This document shows, in pieces, positions 2,713 to 30,828 of a stretch of DNA of 40,241 nucleotides (within the stretch, counting starts at the first letter, position 1; each line of letters starts with the position of its first letter). Below the pieces are notes generated by a model, which saw only the letters and a program-made list of their open reading frames with translations, was not told where the DNA came from and did not search any database. The DNA is taken from NCBI GenBank assembly GCA_015231955.1, contig JADGAN010000046.1:1-40241 (forward strand), in the 5' to 3' direction. This DNA comes from Oligoflexia bacterium (lineage in GTDB: Bacteria; Bdellovibrionota; Bacteriovoracia; Bacteriovoracales; Bacteriovoracaceae). The translations under genes were made by a program, and so were the position numbers.

Positions 2713-5700
2713 ATGGGGGATTATGGGATGTTAAAAATAAATTATTTATTGTTCCTGTTGTTGATGACCATTGTGTCCTTTAGTGGAATTGCGAAAGAGC
2801 ATGAGATATTCTCGCTTATTCAGGATAATCATGAATCAAGTGTGAAGCGGTTGATTGAAAAAGATTTGTCGGTGGTGAATGTGAAAGACAAGGATGGAGA
2901 TACTCCGCTGATGTATGCGGTGAGGGCGGGGCATCTTGCTATGGTGAAGAGACTTGTTGAAAAGGGAGCAGCGATTAATGCTGAAAATAAGCGTGGCCTT
3001 ACGGCGTTGATGGAGGCCATCTCTACTGAGAATAATGATATTGTTAAATATTTATTAAAAAAAGGTGCTCGATACAATGAGAAGGATAGTTCTGGTCGTT
3101 CAGTTTTGGATGTTGTGGAAAGCCGTGGGAATAAAAAGCTAGAAAAGGTGCTGCAGAAACAGAAGAGTAAGGATGAGAAACAGGCCAATAAAGTTATTGA
3201 GTTGATTCGCAAGGGGAAGGTCGGTGCGGTGATGGAGATGATTCGCCAGGATCCTGAAGTTGTCGTGTTAAGAGATGAAGCAGGATCAACATTGTTAATG
3301 CATGCTGTTCAAAGCGGCCAGGAAGAATTGGTAAACTTTTTTATAGAAAATGGGGCCAATATCAATGCAAAAAATACAAAAGGAGTGACTCCTTTGATGT
3401 TTGCTGCAAAGAAAGGTACGCAAAGTGAGGCGATGGTGGCCCTTTTGTTGGCAAAAGGGGCCAGCTATCGTGAGAAGGATCACTTGGGAAAAACTGCATT
3501 CGATCTTGCTTTAGAGAAGAGAAATAAGCGTGTGGCCAATTTATTGAGGCGACATCGAGGGATAAGTGAGAAGTTGATCTTTGAGTTAATTAAAGACGAT
3601 GATCGTGAGGGCATCAATCAATTAATCGCGATAGATCCTTCGGTGCTGGCGTTAAAGGATACTGCAGGGAACTCCACTCTTGTCTACGCCGTCTTAAGCA
3701 ACAATATGGAGTTGGTCAAGAGGTTGGAGTTAGATGTTAATACAAAAAATAGCAAGGGTGTCACTCCGCTTATGTATGCGGCCATGGATCCTGAGCGAAC
3801 ACAGATTCTCTCCTATTTACTGGCCAAAGGTGCCAATTATAATGAAAAGGATAGTGATGGTCGCACTGCCTTTGATATCGCATCAGCAAGGGGTAACGTG
3901 CTTGGTGTTGAGCTTTTAAAACATCATAAGGGAGTTACAGAAAAATTAATTTTTGATTTGATTCGAGATGATGATAATGAAGGAGTGAGTGAATTAATAG
4001 AGAGTGATCCTTCCATTATTCACCAAAGAGATGAGCATGGGGACACTGTGCTGATGTATGCGGTGAGAGCTAATAATTTGAATCTGGTTAAAGCAATGAT
4101 CAAGAAGGGTGCTCGATATGATGAAAAAAATCTTGAGGGAAAAATAGCATTAGATTTTGGGAATATACTGATTCGAGATTACTTATTGAAACACAAGATT
4201 AATAAGGAGCGATTGATTTTTGATCTTCTAAAAGCGGATGATTTGGATGGAGTTCATCAATTGATTAAAAAAAATCGTGCAGTAGTGGATTATAAAGATC
4301 GATCAGGAGATAGCACTTTAGTGTATGCGATTTTAGGCCATCATCTCGATTTGGTTCGAGAATTGGTAGAACAAAATGCTTCTAATGTTAATAGCAAGAA
4401 TAATCAAGGGATCACTCCTTTAATGCATGCGAGTATGGGAAAAGATAACGAGGAGATTGTGCGCTATTTGCTTTCACAAGGGGCCAACTATAATGAAAAA
4501 GATCGTGCTGGCCGTACCGCTTTTGATATTGCTTCTGCCAATGGTAACGTTGAGTTATCCACAATTTTGAAAAGGCATAAATGTATAGAAGAAAAATTAA
4601 TTTTTGATTTGCTTCAAGATGATGATCTTGAGGGGGGCGGCCAATTAATCAGCAAAGATCCCTCGGTGATGATGTCCATCGATAAGGAAGGAGACACTCT
4701 TCTCACCTATGCTATTTTAGGCCATCATTTTTATTTGGTCAAAAAATTAATTGGAGCAGGGATCAAGGTTAATACTCAAAATAGGATGGGTATCACTCCT
4801 CTTATGTATGCGGCCGCTACTGATGCTGATACGGATGAAAATGGTATTCAAATCATGAACTATTTACTGGATGAAGGGGCGGATTATAGTGTGAAAGATA
4901 GTGTTGGTCGCACCGCTTTGGATTTTGCTATTGGAACAGGCAATAGTGTAAAAGCTAAAATATTAAAACATCATAAGGGTATCGGTGAACAGTTAATTTT
5001 TGATCTGATTCGCGAGGGAGACCAAGATGGTATTGATCAATTAATGAAGAGAGACTCTTCCCTTCGTATCTTCAAGAAGAAAGATAATAGTGGAAATACA
5101 ACCCTTATGCACGCTATTAAAGCAAACAATTTTCCTCTTGTTAAAATATTGTTTGAAAACGGAGAGAGTATCAATGCGCAAAATAAGCAAAGGGAGACTC
5201 CGCTTATGGTGGCGGCCGCTACAAAAGAGGTAAAGGGAGAAATAATTGATTATCTGCTTAGTCATGGGGCAAAGGATGAGGACAAAAACCGCGCTGGTCA
5301 AACGGCATTGGATATTGCGAAGGCGATAAAAAATAGTGCGGCGTTGGATTCGTTGCTTAAATATAAGACCGATAAGGAAAAAGTTATTTTTGATCTTATT
5401 CAAAACGATGATCTTGTTGGCGTTCATCAGTTGTTAGAAAAAAATCCTAGTGCCATTTATTACAAGGATCAGTCAGGCGATACAACTATCGTCTACGCCA
5501 TTTTAGGAAATCATCTTGATTTTGTCCAAGAATTGGTGGCAAAGGGATTAGAGGTTAACAGTAAAAATAATTTAGGGATAACTCCTCTGATGTATGCGGT
5601 AATGGATGCAGACAATATTGAAATAGTTCAGTATTTGCTTTCACAAGGGGCCAGTTACAAGGAGAAAGATAGTGCTGGTCGAACGGCGTTTGATCTGGCC

Positions 5701-8700
5701 ACGGGCAAAGGAAACGCTTTAATGGCCAAGCTTTTGAAACGCCATAAGGCGGTGACAGAAAAACTAATTTTTGAGTTGATTAATGATGGAGATAGTGAAG
5801 GGATTGCGCAATTGATGGCGAAAGATCCTGCTATTATTCATGCTGTTGATAACAATGATAATACAGTTTTAATGCACGCGATTTTGAAAAAGAATTTTTC
5901 TCTTGCCGAAATATTGCTGCAAAAAGGATTGGACATTAATGAAGAGGATGCAAAGGGGATGACACCGCTTATGTTAGTAGTGGCGGCCAATGGTTCTTAT
6001 GAGATGATCGATTATCTTCTTCAGCATGGTGCTCATTACGATGAAAAAAATAATTCTGGTCAAACTGCTTTTGATATTGCTAAATCCAAAAAAAATAGTG
6101 TGATCTTTGATCAATTGCTTAAGTATAAAACAAATAAGGAGAGAGTGGTCTTTGATCTTATTCGAAAGAATGATCTTGTGGGCGTTCAACAGCTGTTGGA
6201 GAAAGATCCCAAAGTGCTTTATTATAAAGATCAATCAGGAGACTCCACTCTGGTCTATGCTATTTTAGGCAATCATATCGATTTGCTAGAAAAGTTTCTG
6301 ACAATCTCTAAAGGATCATTAGCATTAGATATCAATGGAAAAAATAATCAAGGTATTACGCCCTTAATGCATGCGTCTATGGATAAAGACAATATAGCGA
6401 TCATCAATTATTTGCTCGCGCACGGGGCGAATTATAATGAAAAAGATGGTGCTGGTCGAACGGCCTATGATATTGCGAGTAAGAATGGGAATGTGGTTAT
6501 GGCCAAGCTCTTAAAGCGGCATAAGGGGGTGACGGAGAAATTAATTTTTGAGTTGATCTCTGATGGCGATCATGAAGGGGTGCTGCAATTGATAGAGAAA
6601 GATGCTTCGATTGTTCGTGCTATTGATCCACAAGGAAATACCACGCTGATGCGTGCAGTTTTGGCAAATAATCTACCGCTTGTTAAAACATTGCTGCAAA
6701 AAGGGTTGGATATCAATGGAAAAAATAAGGATGAGATGACTCCGCTGATGTTGGCCGCTAGTGGGGGAAAAGATTTTAGAGAGATGATTGATTATCTCTT
6801 AAAGCAAGGTGCCCATTACGATGAAAAAAATAGTTCTGGGCAAACTGCTTTTGATCTAGCGAAAACGCATGGGCAGAGTGCAGTCTTTGAGCAAATGCTT
6901 CAGTTTAAGACGAACAAGGAAAAAGTTATTTTCGATCTCATACAGGGTAATAATCTTGTTGGAGTTCAAGAGCTCCTGAAAACAGACAAGAAAGCTATTC
7001 ATTATAAAAATCCATCGGGAAATAGCACACTGGTTTACGCGGTTCTTGGAAATCACCTCGATTTGATTCGTAGCTGTTTGGCCGCTGGGGTAGATATAAA
7101 TGGTAAAAATAATCAAGGGATCACTCCTTTGATGCATGCCTGTGTCGGTATGGATAAAGAGTTGAGTAAAGAGGGTACTGATCTTGTTCGTTATCTGCTC
7201 TCCCAAGGGGCAAATTACAATGAACGAGATTATTCGGGACGGACGGCGTTTGATATCGCTTCTGCTCGAGGGAACGGTGAATTGGCAACGCTGCTAAAGC
7301 GGCATAGGGCGGTTACGGAGAAACTTATTTTTGAGTTGATTGCCGATGGTGATAATTTGGGTATGGCGCAGCTAAAGGCCAAAGATCCTGCAATTGTAAA
7401 GGCGCTTGATCACGAGGGTAACACCACGCTAATGCATGCAATTTTCAAAAAGGATTTAGATTTGGTGAAAGAGTTGCTTCGTAAGGGATTAGATGTGAAT
7501 GCAAAAAATAATAGAGGAATCACGCCGCTCATGTTTGCGGCCAAGGATAAAGATTGTGCGGACATTGTGGATTACTTAATCTCAGAAGGGGCCGAGGTCA
7601 ATGAGAAGGATAAGAGTGGCAATACAGCTTTAACGTTTGCAGAGCAAGCGGGCAATCACGCTGTAGCAAAGTTATTTAGAGAGTGGGAGAGTGCTTATCG
7701 TACGATCTTTGCCAATGCTCAATTTAGAGTAGAGGGTGTTTATGAGAAAGTTCCTGCGAGTGGTGAGAACGGTGGAATTCATACCTATTTTACCAATGAT
7801 TTAAATCACCCTGTGGCCATCGGACTTTATCATCCTAGTGATATGAAACTCATGAGACAGGAAATTGTGTTGCCAGGGAGAAGACAACATCTTAGCGCTC
7901 CTTACGGATTACGCAGCGATTTTGGAGTAGCGATGATCTCGCCGGAGCATCCTCTTCTTCGAAAAATGATGAGCTTAGGCGATTGTGCTCTTCGAGATTC
8001 ATCGGAGTATTCTCTCAAGGCGAGCGACTATATCACTCGCGTTGATCACCTTTTAAATCACCCTGATGAGATCACAGGCATGGCACCACTTCATCAGGCG
8101 GCCTTTTCGGAAGATCCAAAAAAATTAGAGAAGCTGTTGCAAGATGGGGCCAATCCTAATCAACGAAACCCATTTACTTTAGAGACTCCTCTCCATACGG
8201 CCATCCGTGCCTTCGATGCTGATTGCGTGCAAGCTTTGTTAAATTTCGGCGCTGATCCTGTTTTGAAAAATGCTGGAGGTTGTAGTGCTGCAGAGCTATT
8301 ACGAAATGTTTGTGCGAAAGTACCGAGTTCGCTTGCGTATAAAAAAGATGAAGTCGAGTCGGTCTTTAAAATCGGCCAATTTTATGAACTCTTAAGAATG
8401 GGCAATTTCAAGCAGGCCAAACAATTTCTTATCGATCTATCCAAAGGCAATGTCCGCAGAAATGGCGTAGGAGTGGAAGATCGCTTCGTAATGATCAATC
8501 GGAACAATGGTGTGCTCTCTGCCCATGCCTCTGATACAAGATCGCTAGGAGTGGTTCGTAAAGATAATCAAATTTATCTTCTGGATAGCAATCGCGGAAT
8601 TTCCATTATACCAACTCATGGTGGAAAGCCGAAAGAGCAAATCTCTTTGACGTTTACTTTTGGAGAGCGGGCCCCTGGTGATTCTGGAGAGTTGAATATT

Positions 8701-9141
8701 AGAGATACTAAAGGCCCAGGAAATAAGACGTATCAAATTCCTTTGCCTTGCAAATTTAAAGGTGGGTCAGGGGTGTCTGAACTTGATGAGATTAAGAAGC
8801 AGTTTGCGGGGAATAAAAAGATCATTGAGATTTATACTAGGGCCTTAAAGCAAGCAGTGAGTAATGGAAATCTCAAAGCGTTTTTAATGAATTATATGAT
8901 TTTAAACATTAGTCAAGAAGAGGATGAAAATGATTTGTTTCTATCTGCAGTGGTACTTGCCTCTCTTGGATATGAGAATGCTGCAAAGGCAAGGCTTTTG
9001 AATTCAGCAACATCATTGGGAAGTAATGATGAAAAATATTTGCAACTGTATTCGGTCTTGATGTTTGCTGACGGAAACAAAAAAAGAGAGGTCTTGCTTG
9101 CGTTGCTAAAAAGTCAGGGGTTTAATATTTCAAAACTGTAG
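2713..9141 (+). CDS. Giant secreted ankyrin-repeat protein (2142 aa)
   Basis: A signal peptide (about residues 1-27, ending SGIA) is followed by about 1630 residues of ankyrin repeats arranged in higher-order modules of roughly 130 residues. Each module runs from an E-K-L-I-F-D-L-I start through G-D-T-x-L-x-Y-A, G-I-T-P-L-M-x-A, Y-L-L-x-x-G-A-x-Y-x-E-K-D and G-R-T-A-F-D-I-A to an L-L-K-R-H-K end. I count about 13 modules; the fourth is shortened by about one ankyrin unit. A non-ankyrin stretch follows (about residues 1665-1780), then two more ankyrin repeats (about 1785-1860), then a unique C-terminal region of about 280 residues that I do not recognise. Ankyrin arrays bind proteins; with the signal peptide, this one probably works in the periplasm, on the surface or in a partner cell. 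AAGGA sits 7-8 nt before ATG 2713. The gene stands alone. Confidence 0.93.
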   Translation: MGDYGMLKINYLLFLLLMTIVSFSGIAKEHEIFSLIQDNHESSVKRLIEKDLSVVNVKDKDGDTPLMYAVRAGHLAMVKRLVEKGAAINAENKRGLTALMEAISTENNDIVKYLLKKGARYNEKDSSGRSVLDVVESRGNKKLEKVLQKQKSKDEKQANKVIELIRKGKVGAVMEMIRQDPEVVVLRDEAGSTLLMHAVQSGQEELVNFFIENGANINAKNTKGVTPLMFAAKKGTQSEAMVALLLAKGASYREKDHLGKTAFDLALEKRNKRVANLLRRHRGISEKLIFELIKDDDREGINQLIAIDPSVLALKDTAGNSTLVYAVLSNNMELVKRLELDVNTKNSKGVTPLMYAAMDPERTQILSYLLAKGANYNEKDSDGRTAFDIASARGNVLGVELLKHHKGVTEKLIFDLIRDDDNEGVSELIESDPSIIHQRDEHGDTVLMYAVRANNLNLVKAMIKKGARYDEKNLEGKIALDFGNILIRDYLLKHKINKERLIFDLLKADDLDGVHQLIKKNRAVVDYKDRSGDSTLVYAILGHHLDLVRELVEQNASNVNSKNNQGITPLMHASMGKDNEEIVRYLLSQGANYNEKDRAGRTAFDIASANGNVELSTILKRHKCIEEKLIFDLLQDDDLEGGGQLISKDPSVMMSIDKEGDTLLTYAILGHHFYLVKKLIGAGIKVNTQNRMGITPLMYAAATDADTDENGIQIMNYLLDEGADYSVKDSVGRTALDFAIGTGNSVKAKILKHHKGIGEQLIFDLIREGDQDGIDQLMKRDSSLRIFKKKDNSGNTTLMHAIKANNFPLVKILFENGESINAQNKQRETPLMVAAATKEVKGEIIDYLLSHGAKDEDKNRAGQTALDIAKAIKNSAALDSLLKYKTDKEKVIFDLIQNDDLVGVHQLLEKNPSAIYYKDQSGDTTIVYAILGNHLDFVQELVAKGLEVNSKNNLGITPLMYAVMDADNIEIVQYLLSQGASYKEKDSAGRTAFDLATGKGNALMAKLLKRHKAVTEKLIFELINDGDSEGIAQLMAKDPAIIHAVDNNDNTVLMHAILKKNFSLAEILLQKGLDINEEDAKGMTPLMLVVAANGSYEMIDYLLQHGAHYDEKNNSGQTAFDIAKSKKNSVIFDQLLKYKTNKERVVFDLIRKNDLVGVQQLLEKDPKVLYYKDQSGDSTLVYAILGNHIDLLEKFLTISKGSLALDINGKNNQGITPLMHASMDKDNIAIINYLLAHGANYNEKDGAGRTAYDIASKNGNVVMAKLLKRHKGVTEKLIFELISDGDHEGVLQLIEKDASIVRAIDPQGNTTLMRAVLANNLPLVKTLLQKGLDINGKNKDEMTPLMLAASGGKDFREMIDYLLKQGAHYDEKNSSGQTAFDLAKTHGQSAVFEQMLQFKTNKEKVIFDLIQGNNLVGVQELLKTDKKAIHYKNPSGNSTLVYAVLGNHLDLIRSCLAAGVDINGKNNQGITPLMHACVGMDKELSKEGTDLVRYLLSQGANYNERDYSGRTAFDIASARGNGELATLLKRHRAVTEKLIFELIADGDNLGMAQLKAKDPAIVKALDHEGNTTLMHAIFKKDLDLVKELLRKGLDVNAKNNRGITPLMFAAKDKDCADIVDYLISEGAEVNEKDKSGNTALTFAEQAGNHAVAKLFREWESAYRTIFANAQFRVEGVYEKVPASGENGGIHTYFTNDLNHPVAIGLYHPSDMKLMRQEIVLPGRRQHLSAPYGLRSDFGVAMISPEHPLLRKMMSLGDCALRDSSEYSLKASDYITRVDHLLNHPDEITGMAPLHQAAFSEDPKKLEKLLQDGANPNQRNPFTLETPLHTAIRAFDADCVQALLNFGADPVLKNAGGCSAAELLRNVCAKVPSSLAYKKDEVESVFKIGQFYELLRMGNFKQAKQFLIDLSKGNVRRNGVGVEDRFVMINRNNGVLSAHASDTRSLGVVRKDNQIYLLDSNRGISIIPTHGGKPKEQISLTFTFGERAPGDSGELNIRDTKGPGNKTYQIPLPCKFKGGSGVSELDEIKKQFAGNKKIIEIYTRALKQAVSNGNLKAFLMNYMILNISQEEDENDLFLSAVVLASLGYENAAKARLLNSATSLGSNDEKYLQLYSVLMFADGNKKREVLLALLKSQGFNISKL
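2800..7690 (+). repeat. Nested ankyrin super-repeat (unit about 385-400 bp; dimer about 780 bp)
   Basis: Modules starting with the E-K-x-[IV]-F-[DE]-L motif lie near 3568, 3939, 4204, 4588, 4984, 5371, 5755, 6130, 6532, 6913 and 7315, with two more divergent ones near 2800 and 3187. From 5371 onward two module types alternate: type A (N-K-E-K-V-I-F-D-L, with Y-K-D-Q-S-G-D) and type B (T-E-K-L-I-F-E-L, with G-L-D-I-N). A-B dimers are spaced 759-783 bp. This indicates recent amplification of a two-module unit. Confidence 0.85.
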
Positions 9142-9195
9142 TTAAAGAGGAAATAAGATAACAAAAATATATTAATTGAATATAGGGTGTGCAAG

Positions 9196-10152
9196 ATGAA
9201 TAATGAAAATGAAAATGAAAATGAAAATGAAAATGAAAATGAAAATAAAAAAATAAAAATAAATGTGTATCGAAATCAGTATTTGATCTATGCGTTGGTC
9301 TGTTATGCGCTCTATATGATAGCAAGAATTTCGTTCCTTTGTTACTCTTCCCTTGCAAAACATGTAGGAGAAATATCAATGCACCTTATTTTTCTCATAG
9401 TGATAATGGGTGTTTATGCTATTTGTATCTGGAAAACAAAAACTTTACTAAATTTTCGAGTCATCCCATCTCTTGAGACCATCCGATCAGGTAATAAATA
9501 TATTTGGATTATATTGATTGCAATCCTGAATGCGTATTTTATAACAAGGTTGGGATTTCAATCAACAACAACTTTTAGTCTACATTTTATCACGAATTGC
9601 TTGATGCATTATTTAGTCGTTTCATCTTTTATCGATCAGTTTATTGATGATAAGTATTTCATGATCAGAATTGGTCATACATCGTTACTTCGCAAGTATA
9701 ACATTGATCGATATCTATGGCCGAATTCTATTAGTGATACCATCAAGTCAATGTCTCTTTGGATTCTACTGAGTACCCTGATATTCATCCTGTACCTTGG
9801 ATGGATAGAGTTAAAAAAAGATATTGCTTTAATTTTGTTGTGTTTGTTTTTGGCCATATTGTATGGCCTTTTTGCTTTCCTGATTTATGAAAATAAAAGA
9901 TCAAAAATAAAAGATGGCAAAGACAACAATCAAGAGGAACGACTCTTCTTGTCTTTTTTTTGTGTCTGTTTGATTAGTTTGTTTTTTGGGATGTTGTATG
10001 GGGTTGTAATATTGTTCGGGAGCTCGCTTTTTCCTGTGGCAATGGATCGGTGCGAGGTAGGGATGTTGATTATTATTGTCTATATGTGCATTCCGAAAGG
10101 GATTGCACTTGATAGAAGAATGAGACAAAAAACAAAAAGATTAAAAACGTGA
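9196..10152 (+). CDS. Multi-spanning membrane protein with an Asn-Glu repeat N-terminus
   Basis: The product has about 318 residues and about eight hydrophobic segments, with Lys/Arg-rich loops and a basic C-terminus, so it is an inner-membrane protein. I recognise no family. The N-terminus is M-N followed by alternating N-E dipeptides, encoded by a GAAAAT hexamer array. ATG 9196 follows AGGGTG by a suitable distance and is preferred to GTG 9187. The gene follows the ankyrin gene by about 50 bp and precedes the glycine-zipper protein gene by about 80 bp. All three point the same way and may be co-transcribed. Confidence 0.75.
   Translation: MNNENENENENENENENKKIKINVYRNQYLIYALVCYALYMIARISFLCYSSLAKHVGEISMHLIFLIVIMGVYAICIWKTKTLLNFRVIPSLETIRSGNKYIWIILIAILNAYFITRLGFQSTTTFSLHFITNCLMHYLVVSSFIDQFIDDKYFMIRIGHTSLLRKYNIDRYLWPNSISDTIKSMSLWILLSTLIFILYLGWIELKKDIALILLCLFLAILYGLFAFLIYENKRSKIKDGKDNNQEERLFLSFFCVCLISLFFGMLYGVVILFGSSLFPVAMDRCEVGMLIIIVYMCIPKGIALDRRMRQKTKRLKT
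9205..9246 (+). repeat. GAAAAT hexanucleotide microsatellite
   Basis: Six to seven tandem GAAAAT units, the last degenerate, lie inside the 5' end of the membrane-protein gene and encode the N-E repeat. Gain or loss of units keeps the frame, so it would change tail length and not switch the gene off. Confidence 0.9.
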
Positions 10153-16335: not shown

Positions 16336-19014
16336 ATGCACAATGAATTGAAGTTGTTTCCAAGAGAAATAAAAGGTCAGATGTCTGAGCGTACTCAAAA
16401 ATTACTTAAAATTTACTATCAGACACTCTCTTCTGTCGACAATGAATTTCCCTACTGGTACTCCAGAAAATATTTTGAGCTGGATAACGAAGTCGCTGCC
16501 GTCAGAAGAGCTCAAGCGCTCAAAGAAGCCTTCTCTCACCTTACTGCTGTAATCTTTCCGGGGGAACTGATTGTTATGCAAAAGACTATGCATTATCGAG
16601 GTTCTTTTGCCATGCCTTGGCTGTCCGAAGGATACTTTATGTCCAAAGAGGACGAATTTTATCAGGCGTCACTAAAGCGAGGCTCTACAAGTGCGGATCA
16701 ACACTCAAAAATGGGAAGCGGTGGTGGTAATGTGACCAAAAGTTTTGGTAAGGTTGTTTCCATTGCTGGCAAATTTGGAATTAGAGAAGAGGAGATGCCG
16801 GCCCTCTTAGAACTCGCTCGCATGTGGTATGGGAAATCGGTCGATGATTTGGGTAATAAATATGAAAAAATGGTTCCTGGGTACGATTGTAAAGAAAAGA
16901 TCATGAGAAGCTTGGTCTGCATGTTTGACTCCGGATATACATTACCACAGGGAAGAGAGGTGATTAATTACTACTATCCTCTTCAATATGGATTTGATGG
17001 ATTGATTAAAATTGCTTCGGATAAAATGTCAGAGGTGGCAGGATTTGCTAATGGTGATGGGATGGTAGGCATGAATCGTCTATACAACTATCAAGCGATC
17101 AAGCTCGTTTTAGAGGGAGTTCAAGCTTGGATTCTAAACTATGCAAAAGAGGCAAAACGTTTAGAGCATATTGAAAACGACCTTGATCAAAAACAAGAGT
17201 ATCAAGAGATTTATGAAAATTTGCAGTGGATTGCTTATCACCCGCCTCGAAGCTTTAAAGAGGCCTTGCAACTCTGTTGGACTTTGCATATTGCAGTCTT
17301 AAATGAAGATGCAATCTCTGGTCTGTCGCTTGGGCGCTTAGGACAAGTGTTATATCCTTATTATGAGAATGATCTTCGCAATGGGAAAATAATTGAGGAA
17401 CAGGTGATCGAGCTTTTAGAGCTGCAGCGACTGAAATTTACTTGTGTAGATTGTTTTGCCTCCATGGGTGTAGTCGGAGGAGTTTTATCTGGAAACACCT
17501 TTAATAACCTAAGCATTGGAGGTACGGATAAAGATGGAAGGGATGCCTCTAATACATTGGAAATGTTAATGCTGGAAGCAGGAATCAGATGTCCGACACC
17601 TCAACCAACCCTCTCCTTACTTTATGATGACAAGCTTGACGACGAATTCCTTCTGAAGGCCGTGCAGTCAGTGAAGACAGGGACTGGTTATCCTGCCTTT
17701 ATGAACAACCGAGTGGCCATGGAATTTCTACTGGAGCAATATCGAAACGAAAACATGAATATTGAAGAGGCCCGTGCCTGGTCCATCGGTGGTTGCCTGG
17801 AGACTTCACCTTGTTCCTGGATGCCTTTGAAAATAAATTCCGATCCTAAAACCTATTACATCCCCGGAGGATCAGGACAGCCGACTAGTGTCGGAGTACA
17901 CTTTGTTTCTCTTCCAAAAGTGTTGGAGCTAGTGCTGTTTGATGGTGTTGATCAACGAACTTCCGAATCGGTATTGGAAAAGCATAATCGAAAACTTAAC
18001 TCTTATGATGAATTGCTGGCAACTTTTAAAGATTATTTTTCCAAAATTGTGGAGTTGCTGGTTCGTTGTAATAATATTCAGCATGATATCTGGCGAAAAA
18101 ACAACATGGCGATTTTTAATTCTCTCTTAAAACCGGACTGTCTGAGTAAAGGGCATTTAATTAATGAATTGGGTTATCGTTACAATGCCACCTTTAATAT
18201 TGAAACTACGGGCACCATTAATTTGATCAATAGTCTGGCTTCACTGAAAAAAAATATTTACGACGAGAAGAGGATGACCCTTGATGAATTAAAATGGGCG
18301 ATAAAAAATAACTGTGGATATAAAACAGCAGAGTCGATTAACTCTTACTCTTTGATGGATCAGGTAAAGATTGCGGATACAGAGGGAGTGACTAGAAGGG
18401 AGCTTGAGCATTTTGAGGAAATTCATTCTCTCCTGATGAAGGCCCCCAAATATGGAAACTCAGAAGAGTATGTTGATAGCATCCTCAAGGATTGGGAGGA
18501 TTGGTTCACCGGAATGTGCCGTAACTATCAATCCCTTTACGGCCATCCTCTCTATGCCTGCCAGATCTCTGTCTCCACTCATGGTGCAATGGGTGCTGTT
18601 ACCTCGGCCACTCCTGATGGCCGTCTGGCAGGCACCACCTTTGCTGATGGATCGCTCTCTGCCTATCCGGGTACGGATAAGAATGGTCCCTTTGCCTTGA
18701 TGAACTCTGCAACTTGTTTTGATCACTCAAGATCTCAAAACACGCAGCTTAATTTTAAGTTACATCCGATGGCGATTGCAGGAAATAGCGGCTCTAAAAA
18801 GTTGCTAGAACTTATCCGGGGTTATATGCGAAGAGGTGGCTTCCATTTGCAATTTAACGTCGTTGACACCAATATGTTAAAGGATGCCCAGAAACACCCG
18901 GAAAACTATCGTGATCTTTTAGTGCGTGTTGCTGGTTTTACTCAGTACTGGGTAGAAATTGGAAAAAATATTCAAGATGAAGTCATTGCAAGAACTGAAT
19001 ATGGTGAAATGTAA
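16336..19014 (+). CDS. hpdB: Glycyl-radical 4-hydroxyphenylacetate decarboxylase, large subunit
   Basis: The product has 892 residues, close to the roughly 900 of clostridial HpdB/CsdB. It should decarboxylate 4-hydroxyphenylacetate to p-cresol in anoxic cytoplasm. Active-site Cys487 and Glu489 lie in G-G-C-L-E-T-S-P-C, the decarboxylase-type version of the GCVE(P) loop. The glycyl-radical site is R-V-A-G-F with Gly867. Downstream H-F in V-G-V-H-F and Glu in F-N-I-E-T-T-G-T-I-N match regions that I recall bind the phenol side of the substrate. AAGGAG precedes ATG 16336 by about 9 nt. The small subunit (hpdC) and activase (hpdA) follow directly, the order known from Clostridioides. Phenylacetate or indoleacetate decarboxylase is an alternative, but the small subunit favours 4-hydroxyphenylacetate. 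Confidence 0.88.
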   Translation: MHNELKLFPREIKGQMSERTQKLLKIYYQTLSSVDNEFPYWYSRKYFELDNEVAAVRRAQALKEAFSHLTAVIFPGELIVMQKTMHYRGSFAMPWLSEGYFMSKEDEFYQASLKRGSTSADQHSKMGSGGGNVTKSFGKVVSIAGKFGIREEEMPALLELARMWYGKSVDDLGNKYEKMVPGYDCKEKIMRSLVCMFDSGYTLPQGREVINYYYPLQYGFDGLIKIASDKMSEVAGFANGDGMVGMNRLYNYQAIKLVLEGVQAWILNYAKEAKRLEHIENDLDQKQEYQEIYENLQWIAYHPPRSFKEALQLCWTLHIAVLNEDAISGLSLGRLGQVLYPYYENDLRNGKIIEEQVIELLELQRLKFTCVDCFASMGVVGGVLSGNTFNNLSIGGTDKDGRDASNTLEMLMLEAGIRCPTPQPTLSLLYDDKLDDEFLLKAVQSVKTGTGYPAFMNNRVAMEFLLEQYRNENMNIEEARAWSIGGCLETSPCSWMPLKINSDPKTYYIPGGSGQPTSVGVHFVSLPKVLELVLFDGVDQRTSESVLEKHNRKLNSYDELLATFKDYFSKIVELLVRCNNIQHDIWRKNNMAIFNSLLKPDCLSKGHLINELGYRYNATFNIETTGTINLINSLASLKKNIYDEKRMTLDELKWAIKNNCGYKTAESINSYSLMDQVKIADTEGVTRRELEHFEEIHSLLMKAPKYGNSEEYVDSILKDWEDWFTGMCRNYQSLYGHPLYACQISVSTHGAMGAVTSATPDGRLAGTTFADGSLSAYPGTDKNGPFALMNSATCFDHSRSQNTQLNFKLHPMAIAGNSGSKKLLELIRGYMRRGGFHLQFNVVDTNMLKDAQKHPENYRDLLVRVAGFTQYWVEIGKNIQDEVIARTEYGEM

Positions 19015-25529: not shown

Positions 25530-26021
25530 ATGTGCAAGCGATCTGTCTCTGTCTCTGTTTTTGCTGTTTCGATGTTTCTCCTTTCACTCTTTTGGTGTAT
25601 GCCAATGAGTAGTGCCAAAGCAGATGTGGGAATTAACTCTTTTGTCGGCACATGGGTTGGGGCCAATGAGGTGTTTCCAAAACTGGTGATTGAGGCGCAA
25701 GGGGAGCGCAATATTTGTGTCTACCTTTATGTTAAATGCAACTCCTCTTCAGGCCTTTGCGGTCTTGATGGGTCAGAGGTCACTTGTGTAAAACCACAAC
25801 TCTTCTATTCACGACCTCGTGATGATCGTAAAAATGTTGCCACCATGATGATCGAGAGGGTCTACTCCTTTAAGAAGTATCGTATTCAGCTAAGTGTGGA
25901 GAATGGGAAGTTAAGGCTGCAAGATTTTTCGGTGTTTACCGATGGTAGTGAGCGCACTTCATATACATGGCTCTTCTACTTTACCAAAGATATTGCCAGA
26001 TCTTTTAAAACTGGAGATTAA
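25530..26021 (+). CDS. Small exported protein (163 aa), unknown
   Basis: A signal peptide (about residues 1-31, ending S-A-K-A) precedes a mature domain starting F-V-G-T-W-V-G. A beta-rich pattern with four Cys follows (C-V-Y-L-Y-V-K-C, then G-L-C-G and V-T-C-V), suggesting a small disulfide-bonded beta domain. The F-V-G-T-W start resembles lipocalin-like or calycin-type folds, but this is only a hint. AAGGGG lies 7 nt before ATG 25530. Its last 63 bp overlap the end of the convergent MFS gene. Confidence 0.72.
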   Translation: MCKRSVSVSVFAVSMFLLSLFWCMPMSSAKADVGINSFVGTWVGANEVFPKLVIEAQGERNICVYLYVKCNSSSGLCGLDGSEVTCVKPQLFYSRPRDDRKNVATMMIERVYSFKKYRIQLSVENGKLRLQDFSVFTDGSERTSYTWLFYFTKDIARSFKTGD

Positions 26022-27200
26022 AACGTAGAGTAAAAGAGCTACTGGAATGAGGCGTACACAGGTAGAGAGGAAGAAGACGTAGCTATATTCTCTTGAGTAG
26101 ACGATATTGCTGATGGTTGTCCAGGTGATGGCCTTGCTGTGAAAGTAGGCGAGGCAAGCGCCACCTACGAGTGATCCTAATACCACAATGGTGTTGTTGA
26201 TAAGGTTAAATCCAGAGAGTAGTGTGGGTTGCTCTACAGTAGGTACCCGATTAAAGACAATCAGAAAGAGTGCTAATTCGAAGAGTCCCCATAAGATTCC
26301 TGAAAAAAATTCAATCACAAAAATTGCAGCAAAATTGTTGCACATGAGGATCCATGCCAGTGGGATGAAGGAGATACCAAGTGAGGCGACAAGTAACACC
26401 TTTTCATCACCGAGCATGCGAGAGAGCGATTTTGCAAACCTCATGATAAAGATACGGCCAATCAGTGACGAGGCCATCACCGTCATATAAACCCAATAGC
26501 TCATCTGCAATTTAACCAGCATGTAAGGGTGGAAGAAGGGCGCAGAGATGTGCACTCCAAAGCGAAAGACGAGGACAAAGAGTAAAACTTTTCCATAACT
26601 GTGGTGGAAAAGGTTTTTGAATACTTTTCTAAAATCGAGAGGGGTGAGTTGTTGCTGATAGTGGGCCTCCGACTGCCTATTTAAATAGTAAGCAGAGAAG
26701 AGGCGTGCTAGTGCACTTGCACAGAACATGCCTGCAAAGATTTGCAGCACGTGGGTTTTAGAGGAGTTGCGCGTGAACTCTAAAAGTATTCCAGTAAAGA
26801 GCATTGCCAGCAAAGTGGTGATGGAGTTAAAACCAAGGCGCTTGGAAAAAAAACCGGTGCGAATCGATTGCGGAATCAGCGAGTGCATCCAGGCATTCCA
26901 AGTGCTTCCGACCGCCATTCCTGCTCCCCAATAGAGGGTGGCAATGGCAAAGGCGGGCCAAGCAGGCATGCCTTCGATGAGTGCAAGAAGGGCAATCAGC
27001 AGAAAAAAAACACCTTGTAAAACCACACCACTGACCACAAAGCGTTTATGGGATTGAAAGAGAAGCAACATCCGTGGTGTCAGCATTTGTAAAATGCCAC
27101 CGCCTACCAAGGGAAGGGTATTGATGAGTCCGGCAATGAGCTCTGAATGGCCATAGGCGAGCATAAAGGCGGCAAAGTAAGTTTCACCAAATCCAACCAT
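25959..27200 (-). CDS. MFS transporter with missing or changed start codon
   Basis: The product has 413 residues from ATG 27200 and about 12 helices, with MFS-like features. Upstream of this ATG the frame stays open for about 30 codons and reads N-L-R-F-S-I-Y-D-G-I-C-F-A-S-M, typical of an MFS N-terminus, but has no ATG, GTG or TTG before an in-frame TAA near 27293. ACG at 27276-27278 has AAAGG seven bases ahead, as if an ATG had mutated. ATG 27200 itself has no ribosome site. It lies downstream of the ATP-grasp and GNAT genes on the same strand, so it may export or import their product or substrate. The substrate is unknown. Confidence 0.8.
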   Translation of the reverse strand: MVGFGETYFAAFMLAYGHSELIAGLINTLPLVGGGILQMLTPRMLLLFQSHKRFVVSGVVLQGVFFLLIALLALIEGMPAWPAFAIATLYWGAGMAVGSTWNAWMHSLIPQSIRTGFFSKRLGFNSITTLLAMLFTGILLEFTRNSSKTHVLQIFAGMFCASALARLFSAYYLNRQSEAHYQQQLTPLDFRKVFKNLFHHSYGKVLLFVLVFRFGVHISAPFFHPYMLVKLQMSYWVYMTVMASSLIGRIFIMRFAKSLSRMLGDEKVLLVASLGISFIPLAWILMCNNFAAIFVIEFFSGILWGLFELALFLIVFNRVPTVEQPTLLSGFNLINNTIVVLGSLVGGACLAYFHSKAITWTTISNIVYSREYSYVFFLSTCVRLIPVALLLYVLISSFKRSGNIFGKVEEPCI

Positions 27201-27322
27201 CGAGGCAAAGCAGATGCCATCATAGATACTAAAGCGTAAATTTTTTTTTAAAGTGGGAAGGGAAGATGTTTTATTCGTAGAAAGGCCTTTGCTTTAAATT
27301 TTCAAGTTTAAAAGCGATAAGT

Positions 27323-27841
27323 CTAAAATCGATAAGTAAAGATGCTTAAGTCGTCACCCAAAGAGTAAAAATCTTTGATGGTCGCCTCTTCAATCATGCC
27401 GACACGCTGATAAAATTGGCGTGTGCCTTGATAGAGAGCGGCCCCTGCAGTTTCAGTGCGAATAAGGCGTGCTTCTCTAGATCTTAAATCCTCAAACATG
27501 CGCTCCATCAGTGCTTTGGCCACGCCCTGTTTGCGATAGCGGGGGTGAGTGGTGAGCCAATAGAGATCGAAGGTCTTATGAGTCATGGGCGTCTCGCCGT
27601 AGCAGATATGGCCAACCATTGTTTCATTGGTTTCACCGATGAAGGCCGCAAAGACCAAGTAGTCAGGAGGTGTCTCCGGTTTATTTTCCTCGTCAGCAAT
27701 GGCCTTGCAAATAAGTTCCATCGCGACTAGCTTTTCATCGCTAGTGAAGGTATCCATCTCATCGATAAGCTTTTGTGCTAGAGGAAGATCGGTGGCGGCG
27801 TTTTGCAGTTTGCGTATGTGTAGTTGTGGGGTAGTGTTCAT
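27323..27841 (-). CDS. GNAT-family N-acetyltransferase
   Basis: The product has 172 residues and one GNAT domain. The acetyl-CoA site is visible as T-H-P-R-Y-R-K-Q-G-V-A-K-A-L-M (about residues 97-111), following the strand F-D-L-Y-W-L-T, with F-Y-Q-R-V-G-M near the end. It should transfer an acetyl group to an amine. The start is 2 bp after the stop of the ATP-grasp ligase gene, so the two are translationally coupled. The pairing suggests acetylation of the ligase product (a dipeptide or amino-acid conjugate) or of its substrate; this is inference. Confidence 0.88.
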   Translation of the reverse strand: MNTTPQLHIRKLQNAATDLPLAQKLIDEMDTFTSDEKLVAMELICKAIADEENKPETPPDYLVFAAFIGETNETMVGHICYGETPMTHKTFDLYWLTTHPRYRKQGVAKALMERMFEDLRSREARLIRTETAGAALYQGTRQFYQRVGMIEEATIKDFYSLGDDLSIFTYRF

Positions 27842-27843
27842 CT

Positions 27844-28983
27844 TTATTTATTCTCTGAAAGTAGGCCAAGGGATGGAATTTCAACAACAGTAGCAGCAGC
27901 AGTGGCCGCAGCTTCGGCGTGGAGCACTTTATGCTCACTTAAGGCAACCTCTAATAGTTTTTGCAACAGCTGAGGATAAGGAAGATTTTTTGTGCGCATA
28001 CTTTTAGCAAATCCTGCCAAGGGATCGAGGTCGCAGTTAGGATTCACGTCGATAATATAAGGGATCTCGTGCTCATCAAGGCGTAAATCGATGCGTCCGT
28101 AGCTATGAAGCCCTAAAATCGCCGCACTCTTTTGAGCAGTGTCGAGGATCGCTTTACGAAGTTTGCTACTTAAGATTGCTTGACGACTTTCAGTGGTGTA
28201 AAACTCATCGGAGTTTTGATTCCATTTAGAAAAATAGTTTAAGATTTTAGGAAGTGCGGGGTTTTGAAACTTAAAATCGATTTCAGAGATGGCCCACAAC
28301 TTGGGGTCTCGCCCGAGGATGGCAACACTTAACTCTCGACCGTTAATATATTTTTGGATAATCACAGAGTGCTTGCCTTGTAGGAGTAGCGTCTCTACTT
28401 GGCGTTTTAAAGCGGCAGTATCGTGAACCACAGCATTGAAATCGATTCCTGTGGAGCCATCCTCTTGGTTGGGTTTTACAATGCATGGGAAAGGCAGCAC
28501 TTTATTTTCTTTCTCTTTGGCAAGCAGTGTTTGCAGGTCGCTTGCTCTTTTGATGAGGATACTCAAGGGCACTGAGATTTGTTGGCGTCTTAGCAGTTCA
28601 TTGCAATGGTACTTGTTTAAGCAGGAGGAGAGAGTATGAGCGCTGTTACCAGTGAAGGGGATTCCTGTCTGCTCAATAATTTTCACCACCTGAACTTCGG
28701 TGGTGCTATCTTGATTGATTGATTCGCAAAGATTGATAACCAGATCGAAGTGCCTTTTTTGCAGCAGTGATTGTAACTCCAAAAGAGTGGCAATGGGTTT
28801 TGTGGTAACGTCGCTGAACTTTAATTCAGAAAGTTCGCGAGTAACTGCGGAAACCACCCCGAGAATGCTGGCCCTGGCCGCATCTCCAGCGAAGGTGTCG
28901 TCGCTATGGTTATCTTGATTAAAGTCTTGATTGTAGATGATAAGCAGCTTTTTGGTTTTAAGTGATCTCAAAAAAAATCCCAT
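27844..28983 (-). CDS. ATP-grasp ligase, D-Ala-D-Ala ligase-like
   Basis: The product has about 379 residues from ATG 28983; a longer form from TTG 29040 is possible, and neither has a clear ribosome site. The N-terminal part has L-V-I-N-L-C-E-S and G-I-P-F-T-G-N-S-A-H-T (compare F-x-x-x-H-G and P-Y-T-G-S in Ddl). The ATP-grasp core has F-P-C-I-V-K-P-N, E-D-G-S-T-G-I, I-Q-K-Y-I-N-G-R-E and the metal-binding I-D-V-N-P-N. It joins two carboxylate/amine compounds with ATP. A peptidoglycan Ddl is unlikely: the family signature is loose and the neighbours are a GNAT and an MFS protein. A small dedicated ligase is more likely. It ends with an Ala-rich tail. Confidence 0.88.
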   Translation of the reverse strand: MGFFLRSLKTKKLLIIYNQDFNQDNHSDDTFAGDAARASILGVVSAVTRELSELKFSDVTTKPIATLLELQSLLQKRHFDLVINLCESINQDSTTEVQVVKIIEQTGIPFTGNSAHTLSSCLNKYHCNELLRRQQISVPLSILIKRASDLQTLLAKEKENKVLPFPCIVKPNQEDGSTGIDFNAVVHDTAALKRQVETLLLQGKHSVIIQKYINGRELSVAILGRDPKLWAISEIDFKFQNPALPKILNYFSKWNQNSDEFYTTESRQAILSSKLRKAILDTAQKSAAILGLHSYGRIDLRLDEHEIPYIIDVNPNCDLDPLAGFAKSMRTKNLPYPQLLQKLLEVALSEHKVLHAEAAATAAATVVEIPSLGLLSENK

Positions 28984-29169
28984 CGTTAAAAAAATAAGGC
29001 CCCACCATTTTTTATTAACCAATTTTACACTTTTTTTCAAACATTTTGTCAGTAACTATTCTTGTCTACTATTAAATTCTGCTTAGGCCTTCCTTTCTTA
29101 AGTTTGTGTTAGGAGCTTCCGAAGAGAAGGGAGTGTCTTTTGTTAAGAGCTAAGAGGAAGGTAGTAACC

Positions 29170-30828
29170 ATGAAATCTATTTATAACACGATTGTATGGG
29201 TGAGTTTTGTGGCCCTGTTCGCTATTTTCTGTTTACCTAAGGCCGCTAAGAGCGATGTTGATCCAAGAAGTGGTAACTTTAACCTTACCTATAGTGATAT
29301 TCGTCTTTCAGGAAAAGAGTCTGATTTAGAGATCAGTCGCACCTATAACTCTCAGACGCTGCATGTAGGGTGGTTTGGTGCAGGTTGGGGTTGTGTCTTT
29401 GAGACAAGGGTGATTGCACTGGGGGATGGATCCCTTATTGTTCGCGAAAGTGGTAGTGGGCAAGATACCCGTTATCTTCCGCTGACTGGAAGTGTGAGCG
29501 CAGAGGGTGCCACTAAGAAGATTCTTGAAGGAATTAAACAAAAAGTAAAATTGGAAGATAAAGTAGAGAAGGGACTACGAGAGCGCTTTATTGGTGATTT
29601 GCGATTACGGCAACTTTACGAAGAGGCGATGGCCTTAGGAAAGGAGATCGCAGTTGGAGCTATTTTTTATGAGAGTCGTGGTGGGAGGAAGGTGAGTGTT
29701 GAGCGCACAAAGGAGGGTTATCTTCGTACTTTTCCTCACGGGCGAAAAGAGTATTTTGCGCTGGATGGGAGTTTACGCAAAATTACCGAGGCGAGTGGGT
29801 ATGAGGTGAAAGTGAACTATGCGGGGAAGGTGGTGAAAGATATCAAAGATAATGATGATAAAATTTTGGTTTTTGAGTGGAACTCCGATCACAAAGTAAT
29901 TGCAGTGAGCAATGGTGGTAATAGTAGAGCAGTTTACGCTTACGAGGATATCAGATTAACGAAAGCAACCAATACACTTAAGCAGAGTTTTGAATACACT
30001 TATGACAGCAACAACCTGCTGTTAAAAGTGCTCCATAAAGATAAGACAACGATAGAGATCGATTACGATAAACAGCGATTTTATGTGACAAAATATAAGG
30101 ATCGTAGTGGCAATGTTGTGAGCTATAAGTATGGCCGAAGTAAGAAGAACCCAGAAACTGCCTATTGGACAGAGGCCTTGCGGGAGGATTTTTGGGGAAA
30201 ACCACAAACCATTCGTTACGAGTATGAGGAGAAGAAGCGGGCTGATGGTTCTAGCTACGATTATCGAAACGCAGTGGTAGAGAAGGGAGTTTTACGAGAA
30301 ATTATTTACGATGAGAAGAGTGGACATCCCTTAAAGCTCATTAGTGGAAAGTATGTGAGTAATTTTAAGTATAATGAGGATGGGCTTTTGCTGGAGAGAG
30401 TTTCTAATAGAGGTGAGTTCATTCGTTATCAGTACGATAAGAGAGTGAGAAAGGTTGCCAAGGTGGAGAATAATTTCGGGAGTGCGAGCTACAACTACGA
30501 CCAGCGCGGCAACTTAGTGAGTGCGAGTACGGATCATGGGTTAAAGCTGAATCTTTTTTATAACAGCAAAGGGATGGTATCAAAGGTCGTGCATGAGAAT
30601 TGGCAGGAGAAAAATCGCCACTCTATGGAGTTTGAGTATAATATCATGGGAAAACCTAGCAAGATTGTGGTGGAGCATTTAGGAACATTGGAGCTGGAGT
30701 ACGATAATCTTGGAAGAGTCAAGGCGATGAAGTCTCCCAAAGGAGATGCCTTTATTAATGAGATTGTGGCGGTAATTCGTGCGGTTGTGGATACGGTTGC
30801 TCCTGTGGGAATCAATATTGGGTTGTAA
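29170..30828 (+). CDS. Short secreted RHS/YD-repeat protein
   Basis: The product has 552 residues from ATG 29170, preceded by AGAGGAAGG. A signal peptide (about 1-28, ending K-A-A-K-S) is followed by a DUF6531-like N-terminal domain (D-P-R-S-G-N-F-N-L ... R-T-Y-N-S ... F-G-A-G-W), then about ten YD-type repeats (F-E-Y-T-Y-D-S-N, R-Y-Q-Y-D-K-R, Y-N-Y-D-Q-R-G-N-L). It ends with a hydrophobic tail. It lacks the long RHS core, its D-P-x-G autoproteolysis region and any C-terminal toxin, and it is far shorter than toxin-delivering RHS proteins (over 1000 aa). It may form a small surface or periplasmic beta structure. Its end overlaps the convergent gene by 17 bp. Confidence 0.85.
   Translation: MKSIYNTIVWVSFVALFAIFCLPKAAKSDVDPRSGNFNLTYSDIRLSGKESDLEISRTYNSQTLHVGWFGAGWGCVFETRVIALGDGSLIVRESGSGQDTRYLPLTGSVSAEGATKKILEGIKQKVKLEDKVEKGLRERFIGDLRLRQLYEEAMALGKEIAVGAIFYESRGGRKVSVERTKEGYLRTFPHGRKEYFALDGSLRKITEASGYEVKVNYAGKVVKDIKDNDDKILVFEWNSDHKVIAVSNGGNSRAVYAYEDIRLTKATNTLKQSFEYTYDSNNLLLKVLHKDKTTIEIDYDKQRFYVTKYKDRSGNVVSYKYGRSKKNPETAYWTEALREDFWGKPQTIRYEYEEKKRADGSSYDYRNAVVEKGVLREIIYDEKSGHPLKLISGKYVSNFKYNEDGLLLERVSNRGEFIRYQYDKRVRKVAKVENNFGSASYNYDQRGNLVSASTDHGLKLNLFYNSKGMVSKVVHENWQEKNRHSMEFEYNIMGKPSKIVVEHLGTLELEYDNLGRVKAMKSPKGDAFINEIVAVIRAVVDTVAPVGINIGL

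Follow-up and report, generated by a model that had tools for sequence, protein, structure and literature searches.

The trio and its setting

The DNA analysed here, which we call the window, is a stretch of 40,241 nucleotides from an Oligoflexia bacterium (assembly GCA_015231955.1). It is a complete contig (C55) of a 5.6 Mb genome in 114 contigs that is 95% complete. On its minus strand an ATP-grasp ligase gene is followed by the gene for an acetyltransferase of the GNAT superfamily and then by the gene for a transporter of the MFS family:

27844-28983, minus strand: ATP-grasp ligase with the fold of the D-alanine--D-alanine ligase Ddl, not the housekeeping Ddl; 379 amino acids from the ATG at 28983 (PF07478, E 2e-21)
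27323-27841, minus strand: GNAT acetyltransferase, 172 amino acids (PF00583, E 1.5e-10)
27286-27290, minus strand: AAAGG, a Shine-Dalgarno-like motif seen in the sequence, ending 7 bases before the ACG of the MFS gene
25959-27278, minus strand: MFS transporter, 44 bp after the GNAT gene (PF07690, E 1e-16); probable start at an ACG

The stop codon of the ligase ends at 27844 and the ATG of the GNAT gene begins at 27841, which leaves a spacing of 2 bp; both the ATG at 28983 and an in-frame TTG at 29040 are candidate starts for the ligase. Pfam confirms all three genes, which the first-pass annotation of this DNA had taken for a candidate mini biosynthetic locus similar to that of bacilysin. As that annotation had also remarked, no peptidoglycan gene is nearby: Pfam recognises none among the 20 window open reading frames scanned, the trio included. 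A pattern scan around the trio returned two promoter-like sites against a mean of 5.2 in shuffled sequence, and six terminator-like sites against 3.7.

The ligase is distinct from the housekeeping Ddl

The window ligase is similar to Ddl in its fold and at the positions for ATP and Mg, but differs from it where Ddl holds its substrates. The AlphaFold model (pLDDT 92.3) has its best match in the Ddl structure 8evy (Z 33.6, root-mean-square deviation 2.2, 303 positions aligned), and the E. coli Ddl structures 1iow and 2dln both give Z 31.9. A sequence search of solved structures also returns Ddl first (best E 4.1e-14), with the bacilysin-type ligase BL00235 at E 1.7e-4; the nearest solved relative by sequence is not an L-amino acid ligase. 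We mapped residues through an alignment with E. coli DdlB and then across 35 aligned sequences, the window's included, using the E. coli Ddl numbering. The equivalents of K97, K144, E187, R255, D257 and N272 are identical in all 35 ligases, with D at the position of E270, and every one of these ligases has the ATP and Mg residues of the ATP-grasp enzymes. At both D-Ala sites the window ligase carries other residues, and the E15-S150-Y216 triad and the second-substrate site are changed: it lacks the GGxxxE motif, and across the alignment the S150 position is G or A in 35 of 35 sequences, the Y216 position is W in 34 and F in one, the G276 position is D, and the S281 position is mostly A.

The genome encodes its own Ddl on contig C36, which retains GGxxxE, S150 and Y216, reaches 284.5 bits against TIGR01205 and contains the N-terminal domain PF01820. 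The window ligase scores 101 bits against TIGR01205, far under the cut-off of 245.65, and has no match to PF01820, for which a genome-wide search at E 0.001 finds the C36 protein alone. A tree of 102 sequences keeps the 54 window-type ligases together (96) and separate from the Ddl sequences (98), each figure being the single support value of a quick method and the root being placed on eight Ddl sequences, seven of them myxobacterial and named by eye. A grouping with the housekeeping Ddl, which the first-pass annotation had named, together with unconserved neighbours, as what would speak against its proposal, is therefore not found; the TIGR01205 score, the lack of PF01820, the tree and the lost substrate residues together rule out that identity. 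From its sequence, the window protein reads as an active-looking ligase that probably uses substrates other than those of Ddl. A paralogue of the window ligase with 32% identity lies on contig C92 (L002:1375-2529), with no GNAT gene within the 4 kb fetched.

The ligase and the acetyltransferase form a conserved couple

The acetyltransferase belongs to the GNAT superfamily by profile (41.8 bits against PF00583, cut-off 20.7) and by fold. Its model (pLDDT 95.8) matches 2r7h best (Z 23.5, root-mean-square deviation 1.5, 158 positions aligned), with the next entry at Z 18.6. At 33% identity this is also its nearest solved relative: the protein Dde_3044, titled "putative D-alanine N-acetyltransferase" in its entry, for which we know of no tested function. 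Further fold matches are RimI (5isv, Z 18.0) and the acetyltransferases 1n71 (Z 17.2) and 1ghe (Z 17.7). In a scan of the GNAT protein against NCBIfam no family, resistance families included, attained its cut-off, and the beta-lysine acetyltransferase AblB was rejected as an identity (TIGR03827, 16.2 bits against a cut-off of 205.1).

To describe the conservation of the couple we used 53 named loci found by a scan for the ligase only, that is, picked irrespective of their neighbours; they include three Sorangium strains and several related metagenome-assembled genomes (MAGs) and are not independent. Counts of ligase, GNAT, S58 peptidase, MATE and methyltransferase genes here and below are profile or single-sequence matches in six frames. 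Searched with a profile built up from the window's acetyltransferase, 34 of the 53 loci (35 of 54 with the window) have a GNAT gene immediately after the ligase on the same strand. The 34 are mostly from Bdellovibrionota and Myxococcota. Same-family relatives of the window genome are among the sources of the named loci (Bdellovibrionales and Oligoflexia MAGs at L034, L035 and L038). In ten of the 35 couples the stop and start codons of the two genes overlap by four bases. The window's phylum was represented by 240 genomes. Six contain the GNAT at E 1e-15; the five best ligases (318-415 bits) each have one of these copies next to them, and no copy adjoins a weaker ligase match. The phylum of Sorangium was sampled with 114 genomes, 18 of which have a ligase of at least 277 bits, and the best locus per genome was fetched; the GNAT adjoins 14 of these 18 loci and none of the 12 weaker loci fetched (a second ligase of genome G248, at 303.8 bits, is left out of this count). 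These results show that the association of ligase and GNAT is beyond chance. The distances of the two proteins also correlate over 31 loci (r 0.45; none of 2000 permutations as high), a correlation that shared ancestry alone could yield.

The GNAT scores 164-206 bits in most couples and 67-120 bits in the five couples L040, L044, L049, L054 and L074, which indicates that the domain has diverged there; in L074 Pfam does not detect the GNAT domain, and in L040 it detects none of any kind. In 11 of the 35 couples, mostly from Myxococcota, the GNAT is fused to a methyltransferase-like domain; in a Pfam scan of six of these, the domain is named above a cut-off in L039, L047, L052 and L074, weakly in L041, and not recognised in L040. 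Five loci (L185, L187, L188, L189 and L190) have two single ligase genes in tandem and then the GNAT. In L038 the gene right after the couple (7532-9259) encodes a fusion of a GNAT with a histone-deacetylase-like domain. A LipB-like gene, recognised by eye, directly precedes the ligase in L058, L063 and other Myxococcales, and these Myxococcales loci also have a HEAT-repeat-type gene on the 3' side (by Pfam in L076 and L080, by eye in L058 and L063).

A double ligase, often with an S58 peptidase, accompanies the couple

The window genome (G000) carries a second locus on contig C20:

72.3-75.6 kb of contig C20 (L204:6299-9621): double ATP-grasp ligase (712 amino acids) overlapping the gene of an S58 peptidase

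The double ligase exceeds the "D-alanine--D-alanine ligase" cut-offs of both TIGR01205 and PRK01372. The peptidase is a clear member of S58 (PF03576, 397.5 bits against a cut-off of 23.9); its best match is a hypothetical D-aminopeptidase (2drh, E 1e-105), followed by a beta-peptidyl aminopeptidase (E 5e-73). PMC9235088 describes DmpA and BapA, characterised enzymes of the S58 type, as active on beta-alanyl peptides, carnosine among them, and as able to make bonds of this kind too.

The double ligase co-occurs with the window-type ligase. Among 36 genomes of the same family, the latter (E 1e-60 or better) is present in G000, G005, G017, G024 and G028, and both halves of the double ligase are present in exactly those five (hypergeometric probability 2.7e-6); S58 is found in the same five and in G032 (1.6e-5). 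For the phylum of Sorangium we counted double-sized frames, meaning frames of at least 640 amino acids that match the profile. All 10 genomes whose ligase reaches at least 300 bits have one, versus 14 of 104 others (Fisher's test, 2.9e-8), and at a threshold of 277 bits in 16 of 18 versus 8 of 96 (7e-12). In six of the ten genomes both halves are above the cut-off, in G248 the protein is double over its length, and G306, G339 and G360 count by frame length.

We also searched the genomes of 30 named loci, a set that contains no ligase-free control. At E 1e-40 all but one contain a match to the double ligase, which in 20 of them spans residues 87 to at least 674 in one piece; G263, G265 and G269 have a relative of its second half only. 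The sole genome without a match, a MAG of 1.2 Mb, bears the label Paceibacter and may be misbinned. Over all fetched loci, S58 adjoins the double ligase in 19 genomes, not counting a weak partial match in G032. The two loci can also meet: in G017 and G143 the S58 gene is directly upstream of the couple, and in the myxobacterial G327 the double ligase, the ligase and the GNAT form a single run in which the first two overlap by four bases. Of the ligase-bearing genomes examined, almost all thus have the double ligase too, or else a protein related to it, often next to S58; Sorangium cellulosum, for one, has both the couple and the double ligase.

Transporters of two unrelated families follow some of the couples

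A sequence search of solved structures at E 1 returned nothing for the MFS protein. Its gene ends at 25959, as first annotated, and the start had to be moved: the first ATG is at 27200, and it seems from the sequence that the gene begins upstream of it, at an ACG at 27276-27278 where two relatives begin with M. Either this ACG is used as a near-cognate start, or it reflects an assembly error or a weakening gene. An MFS gene adjoins the couple in only three of 35 cases, namely the window, L034 and L036. The window protein is 44% and 42% identical to the other two, and L034 and L036 have flanking genes in common that the window does not share. The association of MFS with the couple is beyond chance within one lineage only.

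In five other couples (L040, L044, L049, L054 and L074) the GNAT is followed by a MATE-family protein, in L054 after a KamA-like gene. An NCBIfam scan of L049, L054 and L074 placed the first above the MATE cut-off and the other two just below it. A transporter of one or the other family, which are unrelated, therefore follows the GNAT in eight of the 35 couples, counting that of L054 behind its intervening gene. Pfam was also run on the next or a near gene in 19 further couples; ten of these genes are on the same strand and none is a named transporter. An ABC permease lies near the couple in L042 on the opposite strand, and in seven couples the next gene fell outside the Pfam scan. The conservation of the trio that the first-pass annotation had proposed as a check therefore holds for ligase and GNAT and, for the MFS, in few loci. 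Because KamA is near the couple only in L054, we do not claim a beta-lysine product. The five MATE loci also feature extra ligases and fusions of GNAT and methyltransferase, and a glycosyltransferase gene just precedes the ligase in L049 and, by eye, in L044.

A possible pathway to a short acetylated peptide

The separation of the ligase from Ddl and the conservation of its neighbours give good support to a biosynthetic unit, as first proposed. Since the genomes also carry the double ligase and often S58, usually elsewhere, this unit is probably not a self-contained dipeptide locus; we read ligase and GNAT as the constant set, accompanied by the double ligase at another place and in many cases by an S58 peptidase. 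The interpretation that we somewhat favour is that the trio is one half of an ATP-grasp, non-ribosomal pathway and that its product, a short N-acetylated peptide, is carried by the transporter. The ligase would use ATP to activate a carboxylate and then join it to an amine; the GNAT would acetylate a free amine, either on a building block or on the product; and the MFS protein would carry product or precursor across the membrane. The other half would be the C20 locus, with two further ligase domains and a DmpA/BapA-type peptidase. The order of the genes, the conserved couple, its co-occurrence with the double ligase, the folds and the residues kept or lost are direct observations; the amide bond, the acetylation, the transport and the union of both loci in one pathway are deduced from them. 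The S58 chemistry and the D-aminopeptidase and beta-peptidyl matches of the C20 protein suggest that the short acetylated peptide may contain an unusual residue, perhaps a beta- or D-amino acid. The GNAT may act before or after ligation, the MFS may export or import, and any assignment of a particular bond to each ligase would be conjecture.

Several observations weigh against this interpretation. The GNAT is missing from 19 of the 53 named loci, although one of these, L050, has just 400 bases downstream. The window's MFS gene has no usual start codon, which leaves weak expression or decay possible; MFS proteins of this family occur in 33 of 144 genomes of the window's phylum, and none of five other copies, examined with flanks of 1.5 kb, adjoins a ligase or a GNAT. 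Double-sized frames without a window-type ligase occur, in the sample of 240 genomes, in G086, G111 and G210 of the same family and in many genomes of other families, as they do in the 14 of 104 genomes from the phylum of Sorangium given above, and the co-occurrence tests treat genomes as independent, ignoring shared ancestry. Finally, S58 (E 1e-40) is present in just 16 of the 30 genomes searched, and in nine fetched loci (L136, L137, L142-L146, L150 and L152) the 1.5 kb on either side of the double ligase contain no S58 gene.

An alternative explanation, which we consider unlikely, is an intracellular osmolyte or storage peptide similar to the N-acetylglutaminylglutamine amide (NAGGN) of Pseudomonas, in which case the acetylated dipeptide would stay in the cell and the transporter would be a bystander. 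Such a role would fit with the couple being the constant part, followed by a transporter in just eight of 35 cases, and according to PMC8070244 the synthesis of NAGGN likewise pairs N-acetylation with peptide bond formation in one pathway. However, two unrelated transporter families follow the couple in two lineages, and one dipeptide would hardly seem to need three ligase domains. The genome has no match to TIGR03103 at E 0.001, which excludes membership in the family of the NAGGN synthetase Ngg; unlike that system, the genes here are separate, the ligase is of the Ddl type, and no asparagine synthase is found among the 20 window open reading frames.

The Ddl fold of the ligase could also point to the cell envelope, with the ligases making or modifying an envelope peptide, be it the stem of peptidoglycan or another one. 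S58 enzymes can release D-Ala, and several Myxococcales loci have a separate Ddl-like gene, recognised by eye, 2-4 kb away on the opposite strand. Nevertheless, the genome's own Ddl on C36, the replaced residues at both D-Ala sites of the window ligase and the lack of a recognised peptidoglycan gene in the window make an envelope role improbable. We regard as very improbable that the genes tag or detoxify, i.e., that they modify proteins or compounds taken up rather than synthesise a product for release. Whereas the GNAT fold matches to RimI and to antibiotic and toxin acetyltransferases (1n71, 1ghe) would agree with modification, the recurrent coupling with an active-looking ligase, the co-occurring double ligase and the NCBIfam result for the GNAT would not.

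Relation to known systems

In bacilysin producers the exporter gene bacE adjoins the biosynthetic genes, and the transporter gene here recalls this arrangement. The bacilysin-type ligases BacD and BL00235 also perform ATP-grasp dipeptide ligation (PMC6920838); however, the window ligase matches BL00235 only weakly and is nearer to Ddl by sequence, and the present system includes a GNAT and a double ligase. A three-gene locus of the bacilysin kind is thus probably not what the window contains. ATP-grasp dipeptide ligases and the combined chemistry of peptide ligation and acetylation, as in NAGGN, are already known (PMC6920838, PMC8070244). What is new here is the double-ligase companion, often beside S58, in nearly all ligase-bearing genomes examined. 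We recognised no description of this gene set in searches of the open-licence literature, and an earlier account, for example by Iyer and others in 2009, is possible. That work surveyed amidoligases of the ATP-grasp and acetyltransferase-like kinds.

More tentatively, the genes may represent an undescribed pathway free of non-ribosomal peptide synthetases, with three ATP-grasp domains, a GNAT and an S58 peptidase of the beta- or D-amino-acid type. Bdellovibrionota and Myxococcota would both have it, methylation would be specific to certain lineages, two exporters would have been recruited independently, and the products would be a new class of short acetylated peptides. Both phyla include well-known predators, and if the proposal were true they would share a compact peptide pathway. 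Current annotation would then label a part of it "D-alanine--D-alanine ligase", given the scores of the double ligase, and extra Ddl copies should be taken as peptidoglycan genes with caution. The set of three to five genes would be testable as the source of a new metabolite class.

Plasmids, phages and neighbouring genes

In a plasmid collection, six of nine records with GNAT matches were opened: five are annotated, with no gene labelled as ATP-grasp within 4 kb, and one shows no annotated genes. Two of 17 plasmid records with ligase matches were opened. In one the ATP-grasp gene is near a CapA-family gene; in the other, the Thioflavicoccus mobilis plasmid pTHIMO01 (L100), a related ATP-grasp gene lies beside diaminopropionate biosynthesis genes, with KamA opposite. 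A phage collection gave three records, with weak matches.

In the window, a short RHS/YD-repeat protein with DUF6531 (29140-30828) is encoded divergently to the ligase. Further away are a glycyl radical enzyme similar to pyruvate formate lyase (16336-19014) and an ankyrin-repeat protein of 2142 amino acids with 22 Ank_2 stretches (2713-9141).

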